From Streptococcus sp. 2342 (GTDB lineage Bacteria; Bacillota; Bacilli; Lactobacillales; Streptococcaceae), in the NCBI RefSeq assembly GCF_013276795.1, contig NZ_VMLR01000006.1, forward strand, positions 1 to 64,000: a DNA stretch of 64,000 nucleotides, in the 5' to 3' direction. The notes under the pieces were generated by a model. That model was not told the DNA's origin. It did no database searches and worked only from the letters and a program-made list of their open reading frames with translations. Shown one piece after another: positions 44,009 through 54,862 of this stretch. How positions within the stretch are numbered: the first letter of the stretch is position 1; every line of letters begins with the position of its first letter. A program made the position numbers and the translations under genes.

Positions 44009-44149
44009 CTTAAGACCTTTCTATTTTAGAAGTACAATTTACTATAACAGAAAATGGCAATAAAAGAAAAGGAGGTGCTTAAATAACTTCATATGGCGCA
44101 GTTCAGAAGGGGCGTTTTTTCTATCGTTTTTTAGTTCTAAGACTACACA
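44009..44149. other. Intergenic gap upstream of ltrA
   Basis: This AT-rich stretch holds the minus-strand ribosome-site region of ltrA and an isolated plus-strand AAAGGAGGTG (44069-44078) without a following ORF. I see nothing else. Confidence 0.4.
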
Positions 44150-44174
44150 AAAAAGCCTTGATTCCAAGGCTTTT
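44150..44174 (-). terminator. Original terminator of tRNA-Lys, displaced by the integrated element
   Basis: AAAAGCCTTG (44151-44160) pairs with CAAGGCTTTT (44165-44174). On the minus strand it ends in TTTTTTG. It lies just left of attL, so before integration it directly followed tRNA-Lys on the minus strand. It is now about 10.3 kb away from that tRNA. Confidence 0.78.
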
Positions 44175-44188
44175 CCTGTTGTATATAG

Positions 44189-44200
44189 ATGCCCCCTACA
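44189..44200. other. attL core
   Basis: ATGCCCCCTACA repeats the last 11 bases of tRNA-Lys (plus one) and marks the left junction of the element. Confidence 0.85.
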
Positions 44201-45220: not shown

Positions 45221-47875
45221 CTAATTTTTTCTACGTACTGTTACAACTCCAAATGTTCCAAGAATTGCACCGAATACCAACATTGCAACACTTGATGACT
45301 CTCCAGTATTTGGTAATGATTTTGAACGTTCTACTCGTGAATATGTCACTTTTTCATCTGCACCTGCTTTAACAGCTGGAGCTGAATATGTTTGTTGTTT
45401 ATCTTTTGTTTGTTCTTTATCTTTCGCAACAACATCTTCTTTAGCATCCAAAGCAACATCTTTACCTGATTGTGAAGCTGGTTTTGTTTTATCAACATTT
45501 TTTTCAGTATTTTCTGTAGGTAAAGTATTAGAATCTGAATCTACTCGAGGTACAGCCACAACAGTTCCGTCTGGTAGAGTTGCAACTACATTATCTTTAG
45601 CTTTGTTTTCTAAGTCTAGCAACTTATCAAACTCTTCTTGGATTTCAGCTAATTTAGTTTGTTCAGCTTGCAATTTAGCTGTAACTGCGTCTACTTTATC
45701 TTGTGCCAATTTTGCAGAAGATTTTGCTTGAGTCAATTTTGTTTCCAAATCAGCTACTTTTGCTTGCGCATCTGTAAGATTCTTATCTGCGTTTAGATAA
45801 GCACTCAATTCTGTTGCAATTGATTTCGCATCTGATACCAATTGGTCTTTTTCTGCATGGAGCTTCGCTTGTTCATCTTGAAGTGCAGTCAACTTGTTTT
45901 CTTCTGTTTGCAATTTTGCTTGCGCATTTGTAAGAGCATTTTCAGCATCTTTTTGAGCAGTTTTAGCTGTAGCTAGTTCATCTTTAGCTGTTTCAAGAGC
46001 AATTTCTTTTTCTGCTTGGCTTCTTGAGAAGTTTTCAACAGCTTTTTCAGCAGTTGCTTTACGTTCTTGTGCATTTTTCAAAGCAAGGTTTGCCAATTGC
46101 AAGTTCTTTTCAGCAACTTCTGTTTGAAGTGGACTAGCTGTTTTACTTGCCAATTCTTTTTCAGCTTCTGTTTTAGCGTCAAGTGCAGAAGCATATTTGC
46201 GTGAAGCGGCTGCCAATTCTGCTTTAGCATTTGTAAGAGCAGTTTGAGCTTGGCTATTTTGTTTTTGTGCTTCAGCTAGTTTTGCTTCAAGTTGGGCAAG
46301 TTCTTGGTTGAGGTTGATTTTATGTTTACCATCGCTACCAAATGAGTTGACAAACCAACGTTTACCATTGATATTAGCGACAGTCATTGCAACACCACCA
46401 CCGTTTAGGTTGTTAGCAGCGTGTCCCCAATTTGATTCATCATCTAAGAATGAATATTCTTTAAAAGCATCTAACACAGCATATTTCAAATCAAGCATTG
46501 TTGAAATTTGATCACTTTTATAGATGAATGCCATGTTTTCAGGATCAGTGTTTCTATTGATGTGACCAGCTACAGCAGGGTCAGTTCCACGAGCTTCATA
46601 AGCTTTAGCTTTTTGTTTACTGTGTTCAAGAGTATCTTGTGCAGCATAAGCTCGGTATTTTTCTGAATATCCCATTTTTTCTTGTAAAGCATTTACCAAT
46701 TTAGCATAAAAATCACTAATTTCAGCAATTTCTTTATCGGTTAAATTGTCAATATTGATGCTGCGTTTATCATCATTCTTATTGAAGTCAACTGTTAGAG
46801 CTTTATGCATTTTTGCTCCCATTGTCAACATAAGTTCGTCTGCTTTACCATCTCTCTTATAACGATTACGTACATAATAGCTTTTAGCATCTGAGAATGT
46901 GATATCGTTCTTATCAAGACCATAATAAGCTTTTTCTTCATCTGTCAAATGATGAACTGGATTTCCCATATGAATGATAGCTTCACCAGAGAGAGCTTTC
47001 TGTGTATCCAAGGCAGTTTGCGCTTCTTTTTCTTTAGACGCTGTAGCATCTGCTTTTTCTTGGATGGATTCAACTTTTGTTTTATCTGCGTCCATCATTT
47101 CTTTAGCTAGTTTCAAGGCATCGTTTTTGACATTTACATTGTTTGTAGCTTGTTTGATGGCGTCTGCGCGGTTGCTATCTGCTTTCTTAGCAGTTTCGAC
47201 AGCTGTTGTTGCACTTGAGATATTCGCATTTGCTTGTTCAATATCTTTTTCAGCTTGGGCAAGAGAGGCTTTGGCTTCGCCAAGTCCTGAACCATTTAGC
47301 GCGTCTTCAGCTGATTTTACATTCGCTTCTTTAGCGGTTACTGTTTTATCCGCTTCAGCTTTCTTACTTGTTGCGCTTGCAACGTTAGCTGTTTCAGTTG
47401 CTACAGTTTCAGTTTGAGCTTTAATCGCTTCAGTAGATGCTTCAGTTGCTTTTTGATTGGCTTCTTGAGCTTTTACATTCGCATCTTGTTTTGCTTTTGT
47501 AGCAGTGATATTTTCTTCTGTAGCATTGGCTTTAACAGCTTCAGCTGATTTCAAGTCCTCTTTAGCGCTTGTCAAAGCAGATTCAGTAGTTGTGACAACT
47601 TTGTTAGCAGAAGTAGCTTCAGCGGTTGCTGTTTCATTTTCAGCTTCAACTTGCTTAACAGTAGACGCTTGAGCATCAAGAGCAGGCTTGACATCAGAAG
47701 ATTTCTTCACTTCTGGTTTTGCGTTAGCTACAGGTTTTGAAACAAGAGCAGGTTCGTTTACAGCAGTTGTATCAACTGCTGTTGTAGTAGTTGCTTCTTG
47801 AGCAAATGCAGGCACACCAACAGACGCAAGCGCAATAGCTGTTGAAGTTGTTAGGGTTTTCAGTTTCTTCATCAT
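45221..47875 (-). CDS. LPXTG-anchored SEC10/PgrA surface-exclusion protein
   Basis: An 884-aa secreted protein. The signal peptide ends near residue 25 (VPAFA/QE). Ala/Lys/Glu-rich coiled coils span residues ~60-300 and ~515-780. Between them lies the SEC10/PgrA domain (HHLTDEEKAYYGLDKNDITF ... NLNGGGVAMTVANINGKRWF). The C-terminus has the sortase motif LPNTG, a hydrophobic stretch and VRRKN. Family members on conjugative plasmids stop redundant mating into a cell already holding the element. It is transcribed divergently from an XRE regulator. An adhesin role is an alternative. Confidence 0.85.
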   Translation of the reverse strand: MMKKLKTLTTSTAIALASVGVPAFAQEATTTTAVDTTAVNEPALVSKPVANAKPEVKKSSDVKPALDAQASTVKQVEAENETATAEATSANKVVTTTESALTSAKEDLKSAEAVKANATEENITATKAKQDANVKAQEANQKATEASTEAIKAQTETVATETANVASATSKKAEADKTVTAKEANVKSAEDALNGSGLGEAKASLAQAEKDIEQANANISSATTAVETAKKADSNRADAIKQATNNVNVKNDALKLAKEMMDADKTKVESIQEKADATASKEKEAQTALDTQKALSGEAIIHMGNPVHHLTDEEKAYYGLDKNDITFSDAKSYYVRNRYKRDGKADELMLTMGAKMHKALTVDFNKNDDKRSINIDNLTDKEIAEISDFYAKLVNALQEKMGYSEKYRAYAAQDTLEHSKQKAKAYEARGTDPAVAGHINRNTDPENMAFIYKSDQISTMLDLKYAVLDAFKEYSFLDDESNWGHAANNLNGGGVAMTVANINGKRWFVNSFGSDGKHKINLNQELAQLEAKLAEAQKQNSQAQTALTNAKAELAAASRKYASALDAKTEAEKELASKTASPLQTEVAEKNLQLANLALKNAQERKATAEKAVENFSRSQAEKEIALETAKDELATAKTAQKDAENALTNAQAKLQTEENKLTALQDEQAKLHAEKDQLVSDAKSIATELSAYLNADKNLTDAQAKVADLETKLTQAKSSAKLAQDKVDAVTAKLQAEQTKLAEIQEEFDKLLDLENKAKDNVVATLPDGTVVAVPRVDSDSNTLPTENTEKNVDKTKPASQSGKDVALDAKEDVVAKDKEQTKDKQQTYSAPAVKAGADEKVTYSRVERSKSLPNTGESSSVAMLVFGAILGTFGVVTVRRKN

Positions 47876-49182: not shown

Positions 49183-49542
49183 ATGGCATTTTTTAAACGC
49201 ACAAATGGCTACAGTGCTAGCCTAGCAGAACAAGCTCTTTCAGATGAAGTTGTAAAATTGGTTGGTAAACAACTTGAGATTCAATATGAATTTGAAAAAT
49301 CGGGCGAAATTGTCAACGGTAAAGAAAAAATGAAACGTACAGATAACATTCAAGGCTATCAAGTTTACGTTGCAAGTGATAATCACAATCCTTTTAAGGT
49401 CAAGTTTTTACCAGAAAATAAGCCAAATTTATCAAAATTCGAAATCGGAGATATTGTTGAATTTGAAGATTTAGAAGCTTTTGAAAACCAGTACGGACAA
49501 CTTTATTTCAGGGCAAAAGATATTAAGAAGAAAGGAAAATAA
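49183..49542 (+). CDS. Small IME transfer-block protein (119 aa)
   Basis: A small soluble protein with a beta-rich C-terminal part (GYQVYVASDNHNPFKVKFL, FEIGDIVEFEDLEAFENQYG). It directly precedes the coupling-protein gene (3-nt gap). Small DUF961-type genes take this position in Tn916/ICESt1-related elements. I cannot confirm that family by eye; an OB-like nucleic-acid-binding role is a guess. Confidence 0.65.
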   Translation: MAFFKRTNGYSASLAEQALSDEVVKLVGKQLEIQYEFEKSGEIVNGKEKMKRTDNIQGYQVYVASDNHNPFKVKFLPENKPNLSKFEIGDIVEFEDLEAFENQYGQLYFRAKDIKKKGK

Positions 49543-49545
49543 TGC

Positions 49546-50718
49546 ATGGCTTTTTTAATGAATAAAAGCCAAAATCAGAAAGTGTCAGAAGCGGTTGTTT
49601 CTGACACTACTGAATTTGGTAAAAACAAATTCGAATTAGAACAATTTATTTTGAGAAATTTGAATAACGCTCTCAATATTAATGATGAATCATCTTATTT
49701 AAATTCATTTGATATTAAGGTTGCAAGCAATGATTCCGGCGTTTTTTACGTCCCAAATCTCCCTGTAAGTTATTCTTTAAGCAAAAAACTATACTTTGAT
49801 ATTTTTGCAATTTGCGCTGGCATACTCTACCCATTCAAGACTCTCTTACCACAGAATAATGCTTTTTTTGTTCCTTATGATACAAAAAATGAAAATCAAG
49901 CACGTGCATTTTTCTTTCCTTGGGTTGATGGGATTCCAACTCGGTTAAAGATTGATAATCTTTCATCTTTTATTAAAAAGAACGTGTCAGAAAATACTCT
50001 CCCAATTATGGCTAACAATATTTGTAATATCCCAATGAAAGCGGTGACAAGTTTGGCGGTGAGTGGAGCATCTGGTACAGGAAAGACTCATTTCTTACGT
50101 TATTTGATTAGTTGTCTAAAATCTTTCACAAATCAAATTATTTGCGTCGACCCTAAAATCGCTGATGTTTACTTACTAAGTAAGGAATTAGGTTTAGAAG
50201 TATTAGCACCAACACATGGTTCAAACTTAAACAGTTTTATTACAGAGGTCAATGAATTGTTGGGTCGAATCATTAATAAGATATATGAACGGCAAAAAAT
50301 ATTATTAACAAATCCAAAAACTCAGTTTGAACGCATTTATATTGTTATTGATGAACTGTTGGCACTTGTTCAGGGGAGCTCTAAGCAGTCTCGTGAATCA
50401 TTTGGGCAATTACTTGGGACGATTGCTCTTCTCGGCCGTCAGACCTCCATCTCACTCATTTTATGTAGCCAACGCTTTGATGCAACTGCATTTGGCGGTA
50501 ATACAGCAGTACGTGAACAAATTAACTGTATCTTTATTTTAGGTGAGATAAATGCGAATACTTGTCAGTTTTTATTGCCCAACATCAATGTTGATAATAT
50601 TGTAGTCCCACCTGGTATTGGTACAGGTATAGTCAAGTTTACAGATAGTGAACATCGAACGCATATTATGCCACTTCTAACCCCCTCTTATAACATCAGG
50701 AAGGAAGAAATCACATGA
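49546..50718 (+). CDS. FtsK/SpoIIIE-type coupling protein (TcpA-like)
   Basis: A 390-aa ATPase with Walker A GASGTGKT at residues 174-181 and Walker B IYIVIDELLAL near residue 265. Sensor-like segments LLGRQTSISLILCSQR and GEINANTCQFLLP follow. Short N-terminal region without clear membrane helices. Proteins of this type link the relaxase-DNA complex to the secretion channel; RCR-Rep-based IMEs often carry one. The next gene overlaps by 4 bp and encodes a membrane protein that could anchor it. An upstream start in the same region is possible. Confidence 0.82.
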   Translation: MAFLMNKSQNQKVSEAVVSDTTEFGKNKFELEQFILRNLNNALNINDESSYLNSFDIKVASNDSGVFYVPNLPVSYSLSKKLYFDIFAICAGILYPFKTLLPQNNAFFVPYDTKNENQARAFFFPWVDGIPTRLKIDNLSSFIKKNVSENTLPIMANNICNIPMKAVTSLAVSGASGTGKTHFLRYLISCLKSFTNQIICVDPKIADVYLLSKELGLEVLAPTHGSNLNSFITEVNELLGRIINKIYERQKILLTNPKTQFERIYIVIDELLALVQGSSKQSRESFGQLLGTIALLGRQTSISLILCSQRFDATAFGGNTAVREQINCIFILGEINANTCQFLLPNINVDNIVVPPGIGTGIVKFTDSEHRTHIMPLLTPSYNIRKEEIT

Positions 50719-51299
50719 CGAAATACTTTAATAAATACAATGTAGTTAATTTTACAATTTTTGTTTCTATTATATTTTTTATTTTAGAGCGTTTGGCTAC
50801 ATTTATCATTTTTCAAATACATATAGAAACATTTTTTTATTTTATTGTTTTTATATCAGTACTACGTTTAATTTCGAGTGTATCATTTATATTATTACTA
50901 TTTATAATTAATATCGATTTTGCATTTAGAAATGCTGAATTTGATTATTTCAGAAATAGCATTAAGTCATATGTTGCGACGTGGCAAATGAGACGATTTT
51001 GTAGGCAGATAAATGTAGAGCCAACTTTGGAAGAATCTTCTCGCTACAGCAATTCAAAACAGGAAATTATCAGAAAAGCAAACCGTTCTCTATTGACATT
51101 AACTGTTGTTTACTATGAACAAAAAGCTGTTGCAACATGGACTTTTCCAGCGAATTGTGAAAGTTATAATATTATGGAAGAATTATTAGCACAGGCTAAA
51201 AGAGAATTAAATCAGTTAGATAGTAGATATTTATTTAATGATTTTATTAGATTAGAAAATAGTAGAACATTCAGCTCAACAGCATTTAGAAAAAAATAA
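50715..51299 (+). CDS. Membrane protein of the IME transfer block (194 aa)
   Basis: Two hydrophobic helices at residues ~12-34 and ~40-72, then a soluble, basic domain (SYVATWQMRRFCRQINVEPT ... KQEIIRKANRSLLTLTVVYY). It overlaps the coupling-protein gene by 4 bp. No family is recognised. A membrane partner for the coupling protein or relaxosome is the most economical guess. The candidate oriT hairpins begin one base after its stop. Confidence 0.65.
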   Translation: MTKYFNKYNVVNFTIFVSIIFFILERLATFIIFQIHIETFFYFIVFISVLRLISSVSFILLLFIINIDFAFRNAEFDYFRNSIKSYVATWQMRRFCRQINVEPTLEESSRYSNSKQEIIRKANRSLLTLTVVYYEQKAVATWTFPANCESYNIMEELLAQAKRELNQLDSRYLFNDFIRLENSRTFSSTAFRKK

Positions 51300-51300
51300 A

Positions 51301-51344
51301 GGTGCGGTGTACTGCTACTGAAGGTAAGCAAGTACACCAGCACC
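51301..51344. other. Cruciform 1 of the candidate oriT region
   Basis: GGTGC-GGTGTACT-GCT pairs with AGC-AAGTACACC-A-GCACC: 16 base pairs with two single-base bulges and a 10-nt loop. It starts 1 nt after a stop codon and lacks a T-run, so a terminator is unlikely. Confidence 0.65.
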
Positions 51345-51385
51345 ATAAATTTAAAACAATTCACGTCTAATGAATAAGATTTTTA

Positions 51386-51478
51386 TGTTGTGATGTGTCA
51401 AGAAAATATGATGTTTGTTTGGATGTGGATGCACGTTTTTCTCCGTCAGTGCATCCACATTCAAACCATATCACAACA
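51386..51478. other. Cruciform 2: candidate origin of transfer/replication
   Basis: The inner stem 51418-51434 pairs with 51449-51465 over 17 bp (one G-T) with loop GTTTTTCTCCGTCA. An outer stem TGTTGTGAT (51386-51394) / ATCACAACA (51470-51478) encloses it. It lies 54 nt upstream of the relaxase start. Rolling-circle Rep proteins nick in hairpin loops next to their own gene, so this is the best oriT/dso candidate. Confidence 0.65.
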
Positions 51479-51531
51479 ACTCAAAATCAACACACACTCT
51501 CTATTTTGTGTCAAAATCAGGAAGGATTTTT

Positions 51532-52860
51532 ATGAAGATTAATCAAAATGATAGAAAAAGAAAATTTTTTGGTCAAATTTCATTTGAATATGAACATAAT
51601 GCAAATTTAAAATTAACTGAAAAAGATTTTCGTGAATCCGTTGTTCAACGTATTAAAGACTATTGTAAAAATGAAGATGATAGGTATCATATTATTTTTC
51701 ATGATAAAGATTTAAAAGATGACGGAAGTTCAAAACCATTGCATGCCCATTTTTATATTGATTTCAAACATGCTCATACTTATTCATCTGTTTATAAAAG
51801 CTTATCAATTTCAAGAGAACAAAATTTAGAGTTTGTTCGTAGTTCGATAAAAGCATGTCGATATTTAACACATAGAAATGAACGTAATATGGAAGAACAC
51901 AAATTCCCCTATGAGGTCAAAGAAGTCATTTCATCAGAAAATACAAACTATATCGATGATATCATGGGAAAAATCAAAAATCATAGCAAAGAAAAATCTG
52001 ACAATGGTCTAGAAATAGACGATTATTGTTTAGAATTAAGCTATCTAATCTCAGAAGAAGGCTTACTTACAACTGAAGCAAAACAACAATTATTTGAGCA
52101 ATTCACTCAACGGATAGCACAAAAAGCGTGGAATTCAAATAAAAGACAATTTGAGGAAAACAGACAAGAATTTATTCATAAGGAGTTTATTCGTATGAGT
52201 AAGGGCGAACGAAATCATACAGGTATTTATATTCAAGCTGAAGGAGGAACAGGAAAATCATATTTAGCACGCTTACTTGCAGAAGAACGTGATAGATTAG
52301 GAGCACATACCCCATCAATAAATAAAAAGCGTTTCGATTTAGGTTCTGGCTACAAAGGAGAAAAAACAATTGTAATCAATGAACTAGATGCAAGTTGTGG
52401 CATGACTTTTCGAGAGTTATTTCAGATACTAGAACCAGATTCAGCTACACAGTTAAGTTCACGGTTTAAAGATGCGTATATCATCAATGATTTAACAATT
52501 ATCACAAATTCAGATAGTTATTGGGATTGGTGTGATTCGTGGTTTGGAAAGAAAAATAAAGAATATCATCAGCTAATGCGAAGAATTAGATTTGTAATTA
52601 AAATGATTCACGATGAAAAGAATAAGGTTATCAAAATTGAATTATGGAATTACACAGCAAAACGTGATTTAAAAGAAAAAGCAAAACAAGCATTTGAAAA
52701 ATTACAGACGTATTCACTAAACAGTGTAGAAAATGAAGAAGAATTTCGAAAAATCGCTTCGGATATATTAGGAAGAATTAAGAAAGTAAAAAATATTGAC
52801 AGCAAAAGAAAAGTTATCACTACAGACTCAACCGACCAAAGCGAGTGCAGTGATAACTAA
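51532..52860 (+). CDS. HUH Rep-type relaxase with SF3 helicase domain
   Basis: A 442-aa two-domain protein. The N-terminal Rep_2-like endonuclease has the HUH metal motif HAHFYIDF (His71, His73) and a likely nicking Tyr111 in CRYLTHRNE. The C-terminal P-loop region has Walker A AEGGTGKS near residue 237, a Walker B-like KTIVINELDA and a sensor-like TIITNSDSYWDW, as in SF3 helicases of small DNA replicons. Streptococcal IMEs use such proteins as relaxases. The ATG at 51532 follows GGAAGG. It may both replicate and mobilise the element. Confidence 0.85.
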   Translation: MKINQNDRKRKFFGQISFEYEHNANLKLTEKDFRESVVQRIKDYCKNEDDRYHIIFHDKDLKDDGSSKPLHAHFYIDFKHAHTYSSVYKSLSISREQNLEFVRSSIKACRYLTHRNERNMEEHKFPYEVKEVISSENTNYIDDIMGKIKNHSKEKSDNGLEIDDYCLELSYLISEEGLLTTEAKQQLFEQFTQRIAQKAWNSNKRQFEENRQEFIHKEFIRMSKGERNHTGIYIQAEGGTGKSYLARLLAEERDRLGAHTPSINKKRFDLGSGYKGEKTIVINELDASCGMTFRELFQILEPDSATQLSSRFKDAYIINDLTIITNSDSYWDWCDSWFGKKNKEYHQLMRRIRFVIKMIHDEKNKVIKIELWNYTAKRDLKEKAKQAFEKLQTYSLNSVENEEEFRKIASDILGRIKKVKNIDSKRKVITTDSTDQSECSDN

Positions 52861-52923: not shown

Positions 52924-53262
52924 ATGACAGATAAAATTTTAATCAAAATAGACAATTTAGAAGTACAGTTGCCTGCCTCTCATATCATAGTAGAAAAAGA
53001 TGAATACCTCAACTTAAAAAACAAGGCTTCTCAGGGGAAGTATATGAGCTTATCCGAGGTTTTAGAGATGGTTTCAGTCTCTCGACCTTGGCTATTGGAA
53101 CATGTTCTTTATCAACCTGCTATTCGCTCAAAAATCGATATTGATAAAAACAAAGATGGGTTTGTGAAATATCCAGACAGTCAGGGTGGACGGTACTATT
53201 TCTTAGCTAGTAAAACGAAACAATTTTTTGAAGAAAACTTTGCAGAAATCTTTAGTTTATGA
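52924..53262 (+). CDS. DUF771-like DNA-binding/excisionase-type protein
   Basis: A 112-aa protein. The segment YMSLSEVLEMVSVSRPWLLEHVL resembles the helix-turn-helix of DUF771 proteins in phages and islands, and the C-terminus GGRYYFLASKTKQFFEENF is aromatic. The ATG at 52924 follows AAGGAAAAA. It lies 51 bp upstream of the integrase, the usual place for an excisionase or recombination directionality factor. Confidence 0.68.
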   Translation: MTDKILIKIDNLEVQLPASHIIVEKDEYLNLKNKASQGKYMSLSEVLEMVSVSRPWLLEHVLYQPAIRSKIDIDKNKDGFVKYPDSQGGRYYFLASKTKQFFEENFAEIFSL

Positions 53263-53313: not shown

Positions 53314-54456
53314 ATGTCAGTTTCATTCAGAAAACGAGGAAAAAAGAATTTATGGGATTATAGAATTTTTGATAAAAATAAAAAGGTGGTTGCTTCAAAT
53401 TCAGGCTTTAAGACAAAAAGAGAAGCTGAAATTGAAGCGTTAGCTCTTGAGTTAAAATTGCTTAATGGTGCAATAATTGATAAAAATATTACATTCTATG
53501 CTCTATGGGAAAAGTGGCTAGAATTAACAGTTAAACCAATTGGAAAAGCGGAATCTACTTTCAATAAGCATCTAATACGTGGTAAATTCATTCAAGCATA
53601 TTTCAAAGACAAACCAGCCTTAAAAATTAAAGCAAGCGAATATCAAGAATTTATTAATAAGTACGCTGAAACTAATAGCAGAGACAATGTTAGTAGAATG
53701 AATGCGGAAATTAGAAATGTGATTGTATTTGCGAAAAGAGATAAGCTTAATATCGAAGATTTTACTGAAGGAGTTATACTCTCAGGACGACCTCCACAAA
53801 AGCGAAGAGATGAAAAATATATTCATAGCTTTGAAGACTATCAAAAGTTAGTAACATATTTAGAAAGCAATCTTGATTTAACAACTTCAATCGTTCCACA
53901 TTTACTATTAATTCAACTAAAAACGGGATTACGTGCAGGGGAAGTTGCAGGTCTCACATGGGATTGTGTATTGTGGGAAAGTTCAGAAATAAAAACATAT
54001 CGCAGATATGATACTATAAAAAAACGTTGGACAAAACCCAAAACGGAAGATTCAGTTCGAACAGTTCCAATAGATGAAGATACATTAACAATTTTAAAGA
54101 AAATAAAACAAGAGCAATCTGTATTCATTGAAAATGAGATGATTACGAATAATGAAAATATGATTTTTATTGATTTGAATTATAATGTTGTAACAAATGC
54201 AGGAGTGAACAAGCATTTAAAACAAATTTTAAAGACCTTAAAAATTCATCCTCAAACTATGACAAGTACAGGTCTGAGACACACGTATTGTTCAACAATG
54301 TTAGCAATGGGTGTTGATATTTGGGCAGTTTCAAAATTAATGGGTCATAGAGATATTAAACAAATAACTGAAACTTATGGACATCTTATAAAAGAAAAAG
54401 CAGATATTGAAAATAACAAAGTTCGTGCTGTTTTGACGAGTTTAGTTAAAAAATAG
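53314..54456 (+). CDS. int: Tyrosine-family site-specific integrase
   Basis: A 380-aa recombinase: an N-terminal AP2-like arm-binding domain (MSVSFRKRGKKNLWDYRIF), a core-binding SAM-like domain (residues ~60-165) and the catalytic domain. Arg207 (LKTGLRAGE), Arg322-His323 (TGLRHTY), His345 (LMGHRD) and nucleophile Tyr355 (ETYGHL) are visible. It lies 70 bp from attR and the tRNA-Lys gene, the standard orientation. It should catalyse integration into tRNA-Lys. Confidence 0.95.
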   Translation: MSVSFRKRGKKNLWDYRIFDKNKKVVASNSGFKTKREAEIEALALELKLLNGAIIDKNITFYALWEKWLELTVKPIGKAESTFNKHLIRGKFIQAYFKDKPALKIKASEYQEFINKYAETNSRDNVSRMNAEIRNVIVFAKRDKLNIEDFTEGVILSGRPPQKRRDEKYIHSFEDYQKLVTYLESNLDLTTSIVPHLLLIQLKTGLRAGEVAGLTWDCVLWESSEIKTYRRYDTIKKRWTKPKTEDSVRTVPIDEDTLTILKKIKQEQSVFIENEMITNNENMIFIDLNYNVVTNAGVNKHLKQILKTLKIHPQTMTSTGLRHTYCSTMLAMGVDIWAVSKLMGHRDIKQITETYGHLIKEKADIENNKVRAVLTSLVKK

Positions 54457-54513: not shown

Positions 54514-54525
54514 AAACTATATACT

Positions 54526-54537
54526 ATGCCCCCTACA
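54526..54537. other. attR core within the tRNA-Lys 3' end
   Basis: ATGCCCCCTACA, identical to 44189-44200. It covers the discriminator, acceptor 3' strand and first T-stem bases of tRNA-Lys, leaving the tRNA complete. Confidence 0.85.
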
Positions 54538-54601: not shown

Positions 54602-54740
54602 AGAAAAAGCTGTATTGGTGCCGAAACTTCACGGTTTGTATTGAACCCGCGCAATTAAGCAGGTGGGCAACTCGCTCTAACTGAAGCTGTTTCCGTGTGA
54701 GACGGCCTACATGCTGTTAGAAGACTTTTGTTTCCCTAAT
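54602..54740 (-). ncRNA. ssrS: Probable 6S RNA (SsrS)
   Basis: The minus strand between rarA and tRNA-Lys holds a conserved-looking GC-richer block ending in CAGCTTTTTC. It folds as a rod: GTAGGCCG with CGGCACCAATAC closing, CACGG/CCGTG inside, a large internal bulge, and an apical TTGCCC/GGGTTCAA region. 6S RNA often lies beside rarA in low-GC Gram-positives. The ends are estimates, and a different small RNA remains possible. Confidence 0.5.
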
Positions 54741-54862
54741 AATACAAAAAATAGTCGGTCAACACTTAAGTGTGAAGTCGTACACCACAGCGTTTCTATG
54801 TTTATATGATACCACTTTTTCAAAAAAAATCAAGAGGAAAGTGCAATTTTTTGAAAAGGATT

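Follow-up and report, generated by a model that had tools for sequence, protein, structure and literature searches.

The window, that is the whole stretch of 64,000 nucleotides of Streptococcus sp. 2342 that was analysed, contains an IME of about 10.3 kb bounded by two copies of a 12-bp repeat, the right one belonging to a Streptococcus tRNA-Lys gene (Table 1). In two relatives, G236 and G023, the left flank is alike up to position 44200; on the right the similarity resumes at 54526 in G236 and at 54524 in G023, and the matching flanks enclose about 4 kb of different DNA. As these flanks stop and start at the repeats around other inserts, the repeats at 44200 and 54526 are the ends of the element. 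The final 53 bases up to the end of attL (44148-44200) are 80-96% similar to many other places in related genomes, so that a dispersed repeat may abut the attachment site, and a 6S RNA gene (54603-54796, minus strand) adjoins the tRNA-Lys attachment site.

The genes follow each other in the order 119-aa protein, TcpA-like protein, 194-aa protein, hairpin gap, Rep, DUF771 protein and integrase, the place of the excisionase in such an order being taken from PMC5357655. In addition, an LPXTG protein encoded on the minus strand at 45221-47875 has a surface-exclusion domain of the SEC10/PgrA kind (191.8 bits against a cut-off of 70) and appears to be cargo; the related elements L078 and L079 carry proteins similar to it in size and start. 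The class of IME is known: the compact TcpA - relaxase - excisionase - tyrosine integrase order, the relaxase made of a Rep plus a helicase, and the tyrosine integrase with site-specific insertion between short direct repeats are those of the Rel_PF01719-PF00910 IMEs (Coluzzi 2017, IME class 4), from which the window element differs in that its Rep stays below the Pfam cut-offs. No oriT or nick site was found described for this class in the available part of the Coluzzi 2017 account.

Table 1 Features of the element and of its hairpin gap (positions in the window)
Feature	Position	Strand	Evidence
attL copy of the 12-bp direct repeat	44189..44200	+	flank matches in two relatives
119-aa protein, predicted OB fold	49183..49542	+	best structural match SAG0934 (2k5d)
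TcpA/FtsK-like coupling protein	49546..50718	+	PF01580 27 bits, cut-off 24
194-aa third coupling-block protein, hydrophobic N-terminal half, probably membrane	50715..51299	+	no family match
H1, bulged hairpin of the coupling-protein block	51301..51345	+	DNA folding; single-base bulges
Outer stem, not conserved	51386..51478	+	arms 51386-51397/51467-51478, 11/12 paired
Left box TGTGTCAA, candidate Rep-binding repeat	51394..51401	+	near-constant spacing
H2, putative Rep nick hairpin (nic locus of dso / candidate oriT)	51417..51466	+	folding, conserved loop, covarying stem
H2 loop, 14 nt, GTTTTTCTCCGTCA	51435..51448	+	
Invariant CTCCGTC with predicted nick 51445/51446	51441..51447	+	register with pMV158 TACTACG/AC
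Right box TGTGTCAA, candidate repeat for Rep binding, perhaps also with a role in regulating rep	51507..51514	+	near-constant spacing
Rep/relaxase, 442 aa	51532..52860	+	HUH LHAH (70-73), YLTH (111-114), helicase region
DUF771 protein, at usual excisionase place	52924..53262	+	PF05595 77.2 bits
Tyrosine integrase	53314..54456	+	PF00589 76.1 bits
attR copy of the 12-bp direct repeat, 3' end of tRNA-Lys(CTT)	54526..54537	+	

The 119-aa protein that opens the coupling block was modelled with a pLDDT of 83.8 as an OB fold closest to SAG0934 (2k5d; Z 9.3, rmsd 3.0 over 91 residues; next Z 7.4), as expected of a HelP/OrfM-type protein. Foldseek gave an E of 0.034, with no match at 0.001 or better, and no match in the PDB was found by sequence, so that the link to HelP rests on fold comparison. 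SAG0934 is a HelP homologue, and such OB-fold proteins are relaxosome parts in ICESt3 (PMC12614216); the 119-aa protein fits a transfer block, a shared fold not being a shared function.

The Rep is a relaxase by homology only, and it is encoded, like the coupling protein, beside the candidate oriT. It combines an HUH motif with YLxH in motif III, the signature of the pCRESS YLxH supergroup; H71, H73 and YLTH are invariant in 10/10 aligned Reps, the HUH motif reading LHAH or, in L009, LHVH, and Y111 of YLTH is the predicted nucleophile. The pCRESS4-8 Reps of this supergroup share the YLxH signature, and most of their groups sit on integrated elements (Kazlauskas 2019); no origin or loop sequence was found for them in the available part of that paper. 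The window Rep has no match to Rep_OBD (PF01719), and its match to RNA_helicase (PF00910), at 16.6 bits, lies under the cut-off of 21.5. At E up to 0.1, PF01719 is found in four and PF00910 in all 10 of the alignment members, and the homologue L013 passes both cut-offs. The predicted structure of the Rep is poor (AlphaFold, pLDDT 48.8), too weak for a structure search. By sequence, the Rep gave nine matches in the PDB, all with E of 0.2 or worse, no match in PHROGs and no relative among viral contigs; 10 distant matches were obtained in phage records and 25 records matched among plasmids, five of which were inspected for loops (L212-L216).

As the preliminary description had it, two hairpins occupy the gap between the coupling block and the Rep, which measures 232 bp from the stop at 51299 to the ATG at 51532. 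In a folding scan of the window, the most stable 48-nt stretch (n=10,659, step 6) starts at 51301 and the most stable 96-nt stretch (n=10,651) at 51385. DNA folding gives one hairpin for the first of them, H1, which is real and has single-base bulges. The second, H2, was described as a 17-bp inner stem with a 14-nt loop, and indeed 17/18 bp are paired between its arms (51417-51434/51449-51466). No Rfam family matched any part of 51296-51531 at E up to 1, and the possibility that H1 and H2 are known structured RNAs was dropped.

The conservation of H2 was examined in relatives of the Rep, which matched in 47/284 genomes of the genus and, in a search at the level of the order, in 33/395 genomes. 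Eleven intact loci with 54-100% Rep identity, including the window and the near copies L005 and L006, form the close set; with L013, which has the next best Rep, and L038, from the order search, they make up the 13 intact loci of type A. CTCCGTC lies in the loop of a stem of at least 8 bp just upstream of rep in all 11 close loci and in L013 and L038, and it occurs in a hairpin loop in 0/26,000 dinucleotide shuffles of the 13 type-A stretches. In L012, a broken copy of rep, no CTCCGTC was found in the stretch examined. The stem varies around this fixed loop: in an alignment of 10 distinct sequences, in which the loop heptamer is invariant, 99.2% of 120 cells are paired, 45/120 carry compensatory changes and 11/12 pairs show a double change. 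The covariation score is 1.033 versus 0.241 (sd 0.054) in shuffles, is reached in 0/500 of these, and falls to at most 0.262 when the alignment is slid out of register.

Moreover, TGTGTCAA-like boxes stand on both sides of H2 in 11/11 close loci with near-constant spacing. The left box, TGTG[TC][TC]AA, starts 47-48 nt before CTCCGTC in 10/11 loci and 37 nt before it in L004; the right box begins 65-66 nt from the first base of CTCCGTC in 9/11 and 76-77 nt from it in L010 and L011, reading TGTGGCAA in L011. A conserved sequence in a hairpin loop beside rep (13/13 type-A loci) and repeats near the nick hairpin for putative Rep binding (11/11 close loci) are both marks of an RCR dso of the pMV158/YLxH kind. 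The 9-bp outer stem of the preliminary description fared less well. The pairing is present in the window, yet it recurs in just 4/11 close loci (L001, L003 and the near copies L005 and L006), the seven others having weaker, different outer pairings; since it also overlaps the conserved TGTGTCAA box, it is probably incidental, and was dropped as a part of H2.

The strongest evidence for H2 as the nick hairpin comes from a natural swap, in which other Rep families appear to bring their own loop. A search with the 194-aa protein gave matches in 41/279 genomes, and the Reps encoded behind the related coupling blocks are of four types: type A; type B, a Viral_Rep-like protein of 411 aa (PF02407 24.4 bits, just below the cut-off of 26); type C, which has PF01719 as well as PF00910; and type D, a RepB-like protein of 203 aa without helicase. 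Behind these blocks, the loop contains the TAGTATTAC-like sequence [TC]AGT[AG]TTAC in 5/5 folded type-B loci and [TG]ACTACG in 4/4 folded type-D loci. Loci fetched by Rep similarity agree. For type B, counted on the 12 strong places (E 2.9e-118 or better) of 29, the script recognised [TC]AGT[AG]TTAC in 10/12, and the other two were read by eye, L115 having it on the opposite strand and L137 having TTAGTATTAC in an imperfect stem. For type D, of which 30 loci covering part of the places found were fetched, ACTACG is present in 29/30, as TACTACG in 25 and GACTACG in four; no hairpin was found in L148. RepB of pMV158 is experimentally proven to nick at TACTACG/AC in a hairpin loop (PMC5030251), and type D therefore calibrates the method. 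Furthermore, H2 stays with type-A Reps when different genes lie upstream, such as that of a 479-aa protein in L078 and L079. The preliminary description had suggested comparing the loops with those of related IMEs; in that comparison CTCCGTC is invariant with this Rep and the loop changes with the kind of Rep. Judged from the sequences compared, H2 with its loop is tied to this Rep and is replaced along with the kind of Rep. A further motif, (C/T)(A/G)(C/T)GTCTA (51362-51369 in the window), is placed either between the two hairpins or ahead of H2 in 9/11 close type-A loci and is also present in 4/5 type-B loci.

Further kinds of loop, GGGCTTGTTA-like, GGTCTTGGCAT and GGACTTGACGA, were found in wider helicase-bearing relatives, the loci with other loop classes beside such Reps being among L014-L030, L042-L055, L215 and L216. 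The script flagged the GGGCTTGTTA-like loop in 13/28 loci, to which two plasmids are added; the GGGCTTGTTA loop is common to streptococcal loci, the staphylococcal plasmid SAP110B and a phytoplasma plasmid. Among the five plasmids inspected, CTCCGTC is in the loop of L214, a Staphylococcus plasmid, and GGCTTGT in those of L215 and L216; L212 and L213, with distant Reps, have no recognised loop (254 upstream bases examined in L213). The Rep of L214 is 27% identical to that of the window (97/356 columns, E 7e-24), and its loop, TTGCTCCGTC, is closed by a perfect 8-bp stem unlike that of the window. Farther out, the Reps are accompanied by different loops or by none that was recognised, so that CTCCGTC marks one clade and not the superfamily.

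In a tree of 39 Reps the 13 CTCCGTC rows form one side of a single branch (support 100/99), and the four loop labels require 4 changes versus 19.7 in shuffles (0/200 as low), a clustering that near copies inflate. Its rows are the loop-labelled loci, whose labels come from a script or from reading by eye. The tree omits the near copies L006, L015 and L016, the broken L012, the unlabelled L059, L060, L212 and L213 and the order-search loci L052, L056-L058 and L061-L065, the others being second copies of loci used. The row of L007 is shortened by the choice of start. Long branches were flagged by the program for L013, L038, L214, L215, L216 and L047, and make the positions of L013, L038 and L214 unsure.

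Taken together, these comparisons strongly support H2 as a Rep nicking hairpin, i.e. as dso and candidate oriT. We consider it very likely that H2 is the nick site of this Rep, and probable that it also serves in transfer. The literal pMV158 nick sequence TACTACG is absent from the H2 loop, which has TTCTCCGTC, so that the dso would work like the pMV158 kind with a motif of its own. TTCTCCGTC equals TACTACGAC at 6/9 positions, and Y111 and H114 of the window Rep can be compared with RepB. By eye, TACTACGAC, TTCTCCGTC, GGCTTGTTA, GACTTGACG and GTCTTGGCA can be lined up on a common CT, and a nick after the seventh letter of the lined-up loops would fall between G51445 and T51446. The two systems differ in the loop motif, CTCCGTC in the window, in the helicase region of the window Rep and its place on an integrated element, and in the repeats, the distal ones of pMV158 being 84 bp downstream of the nick, whereas the boxes of the window flank the hairpin on both sides. 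The origin of CRESS-DNA viruses is a TAGTATTAC-type nonanucleotide. There too the nick sequence lies in a hairpin loop (PMC8780604), and the TAGTATTAC-type motif is found in the sister elements with a Viral_Rep-type relaxase, whereas in the window element both the Rep family and the loop are different. The oriT of ICESt3 (IR1 with nic, IR2 the binding site) also has a nick in a hairpin loop and a second inverted repeat apart from it; unlike the window element, ICESt3 has a MobT relaxase and a CT'AA nick, and its IR2 is downstream and bound by the relaxase, whereas H1 is upstream and unlinked to the kind of Rep.

From what is described for RepB and for the mobilisation of RCR plasmids (PMC5030251, PMC5714925), we infer the following course for binding, cutting, strand, nick position and transfer. 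After excision, the Rep would bind the TGTGTCAA boxes and extrude H2 from supercoiled DNA. It would then cut the plus strand in the H2 loop, at the predicted CTCCG/TC, by Tyr111, and stay bound to the 5' end. Rolling-circle replication could be primed from the free 3' end, and the Rep-bound strand could pass to the TcpA coupling protein and then to the secretion system of a helper. H2 and its boxes would thus be the double-strand origin and, by extension, the oriT, with H1 as a second, Rep-independent element of the coupling block.

A dso is not necessarily functional as an oriT. H2 could be only the dso of the excised circle, with transfer, if any, proceeding through another site such as H1 or through the relaxase of a helper: the H2 loop and boxes resemble the dso of RCR plasmids, a plasmid typed as non-mobilizable carries the same loop, and L036 and L037 keep H2 with a gene for a 106-aa protein upstream and no TcpA-sized ORF beside the Rep. 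Against this, RCR plasmid Reps can use a dso as oriT with ConQ, the coupling protein of ICEBs1 (PMC5714925), and six type-A loci have a related coupling block upstream (with the third gene split in L003), so that we regard a role in replication alone as improbable. Strong intergenic hairpins are common, and both hairpins could also be incidental repeats or terminators without any role in an origin; such a reading, which the fixed loop with its covarying stem, the loop following the Rep family and the shuffles argue against, is hardly credible, and for H2 it is refuted at the level of sequence.

H1 has a different distribution from H2. A pattern search found the H1 of the window in 8/279 genomes, in two of which (G066 and G113) it stands before type-B Reps. 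A covariance model built from nine H1 copies (R1) matched 8/147 genomes at E 2.9e-15 or better, all of which have a good match to the 194-aa protein; there was no further strong match in the 147 genomes, the next best having E 0.2. R1 detects H1 in 6/13 type-A loci, and not in L004, L008-L011, L013 and L038. As R1 finds H1 in only some type-A loci and H1 also precedes a type-B Rep, H1 goes, on this comparison, with the coupling block, independently of the kind of Rep, and H2 goes with the Rep. The preliminary description had joined the two as a two-cruciform oriT. Of that claim, H2 stands as the Rep nicking hairpin and candidate oriT; H1 falls outside the Rep-specific origin, the outer stem is unconserved, and a single unit was abandoned since the two hairpins dissociate. 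The candidate oriT is accordingly H2 with its boxes, because H1 follows the coupling block and H2 the Rep.

Hairpins from the corresponding position in distant blocks were used to build another model (R2), which gave 17 places. The best 12 (E up to 0.0019) each adjoin a Rep found by the Rep searches; among the remaining five, one is the best match read on the opposite strand and four have no known Rep alongside. R2 also has a weak match in L080, about 2.8 kb before the nick motif. A single H1 model for all blocks failed, as R2 misses the H1 of the window and those of L086-L091, L093, L097 and L098. Since R1 and R2 miss each other's copies, the case for H1 as one family across blocks is one of place and build. 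Covariation in the close set is modest (2/19 pairs with double changes, 6 cells, score 0.183 versus 0.135).

Whether H1 acts as RNA or in the transferred single strand is about evenly balanced. That it is an RNA-level element, i.e. a hairpin serving in termination, processing or stabilisation at the 3' end of the mRNA of the coupling block, has somewhat under an even chance. A strong hairpin follows the stop of the third, 194-aa gene in 27/30 loci, the exceptions being L083, cut by an insertion or assembly gap, and L084 and L085, in which the frame runs into the hairpin; a T run follows it in L092-L096. In the window, however, the tail of H1 is ATAAATTT, with no T run, and the terminator scan lists no plus-strand terminator at 51301-51346, so that an intrinsic terminator is unsupported there. 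The bulges are also unusual for a terminator, being confined to the 3' arm in 21/26 loci (five also have unpaired 5' bases in the outer extension). Wobble pairs favour the plus strand (G-T 26 versus A-C 4 in two alignments, 13 to 1 and 13 to 3), with structures drawn on the plus strand, which itself leans toward G-T; this bias is equally compatible with RNA and with single-stranded DNA.

A single-strand DNA element of the transferred strand, such as an sso or a site at which the OB-fold/TcpA relaxosome docks, is given a similar chance, a little short of even. H1 travels with the OB-fold and TcpA genes, and in each of the 8 pattern-matched genomes (the insertion-cut L083 aside) it is found on the 5' side of the nick motif, on the same strand, as expected of an sso. 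One-armed bulges are in keeping with it as well. In L115 (G056) the stretch carrying H1 and the nick hairpin seems to be turned round with respect to the genes on either side, a single case that speaks for a DNA element and against a pure mRNA role. Conversely, the OB-fold homologues OrfL and OrfM bind DNA weakly and without sequence specificity (PMC12614216). Some type-D loci, moreover, have another hairpin: L097, L099 and L100 carry, between H1 and the nick hairpin, an extra one with the loop TAGCGTAGTCT. TAGCGT, present in this loop, is the CS-6 motif of ssoA-type single-strand origins.

One survey, quoted through a review, found relaxases like rolling-circle initiators in 118/144 streptococcal IMEs. 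In the literature searched, no published origin was found for this relaxase class, nor for the kinds of such relaxases other than MobT. A loop motif that can be read from sequence gives a testable nick position and would allow origins to be annotated for several IME classes at once. The swap shows that Reps resembling those of viruses and of plasmids are exchanged next to a single kind of coupling module, and H1 is a conserved structure. A tentative reading, possible though on balance unlikely, is a bipartite plug-in transfer origin, in which a fixed H1 with the OB-fold/TcpA block, read as a folded single strand, would be combined with an exchangeable Rep-specific nick hairpin. If this were true, viral and plasmid relaxase families would be swapped like cassettes, with the export module and its own cis signal staying in place, and joining mediated by the Rep at the nick could be one route of swapping.

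Relaxase-made chimeras at nic have been proposed for Tn916-like ICEs (PMC7563491). As a separate observation, the locus L007/L090 of G210 has between H1 and H2, upstream of its type-A origin, what looks like the fossil of a type-B nick hairpin reduced to its left half (ATGTCTA ... GTGTAAAGCTAGTA). The sequence of this locus is clearly similar to type B as far as about the usual nick position, from which point it resembles a type-A locus.
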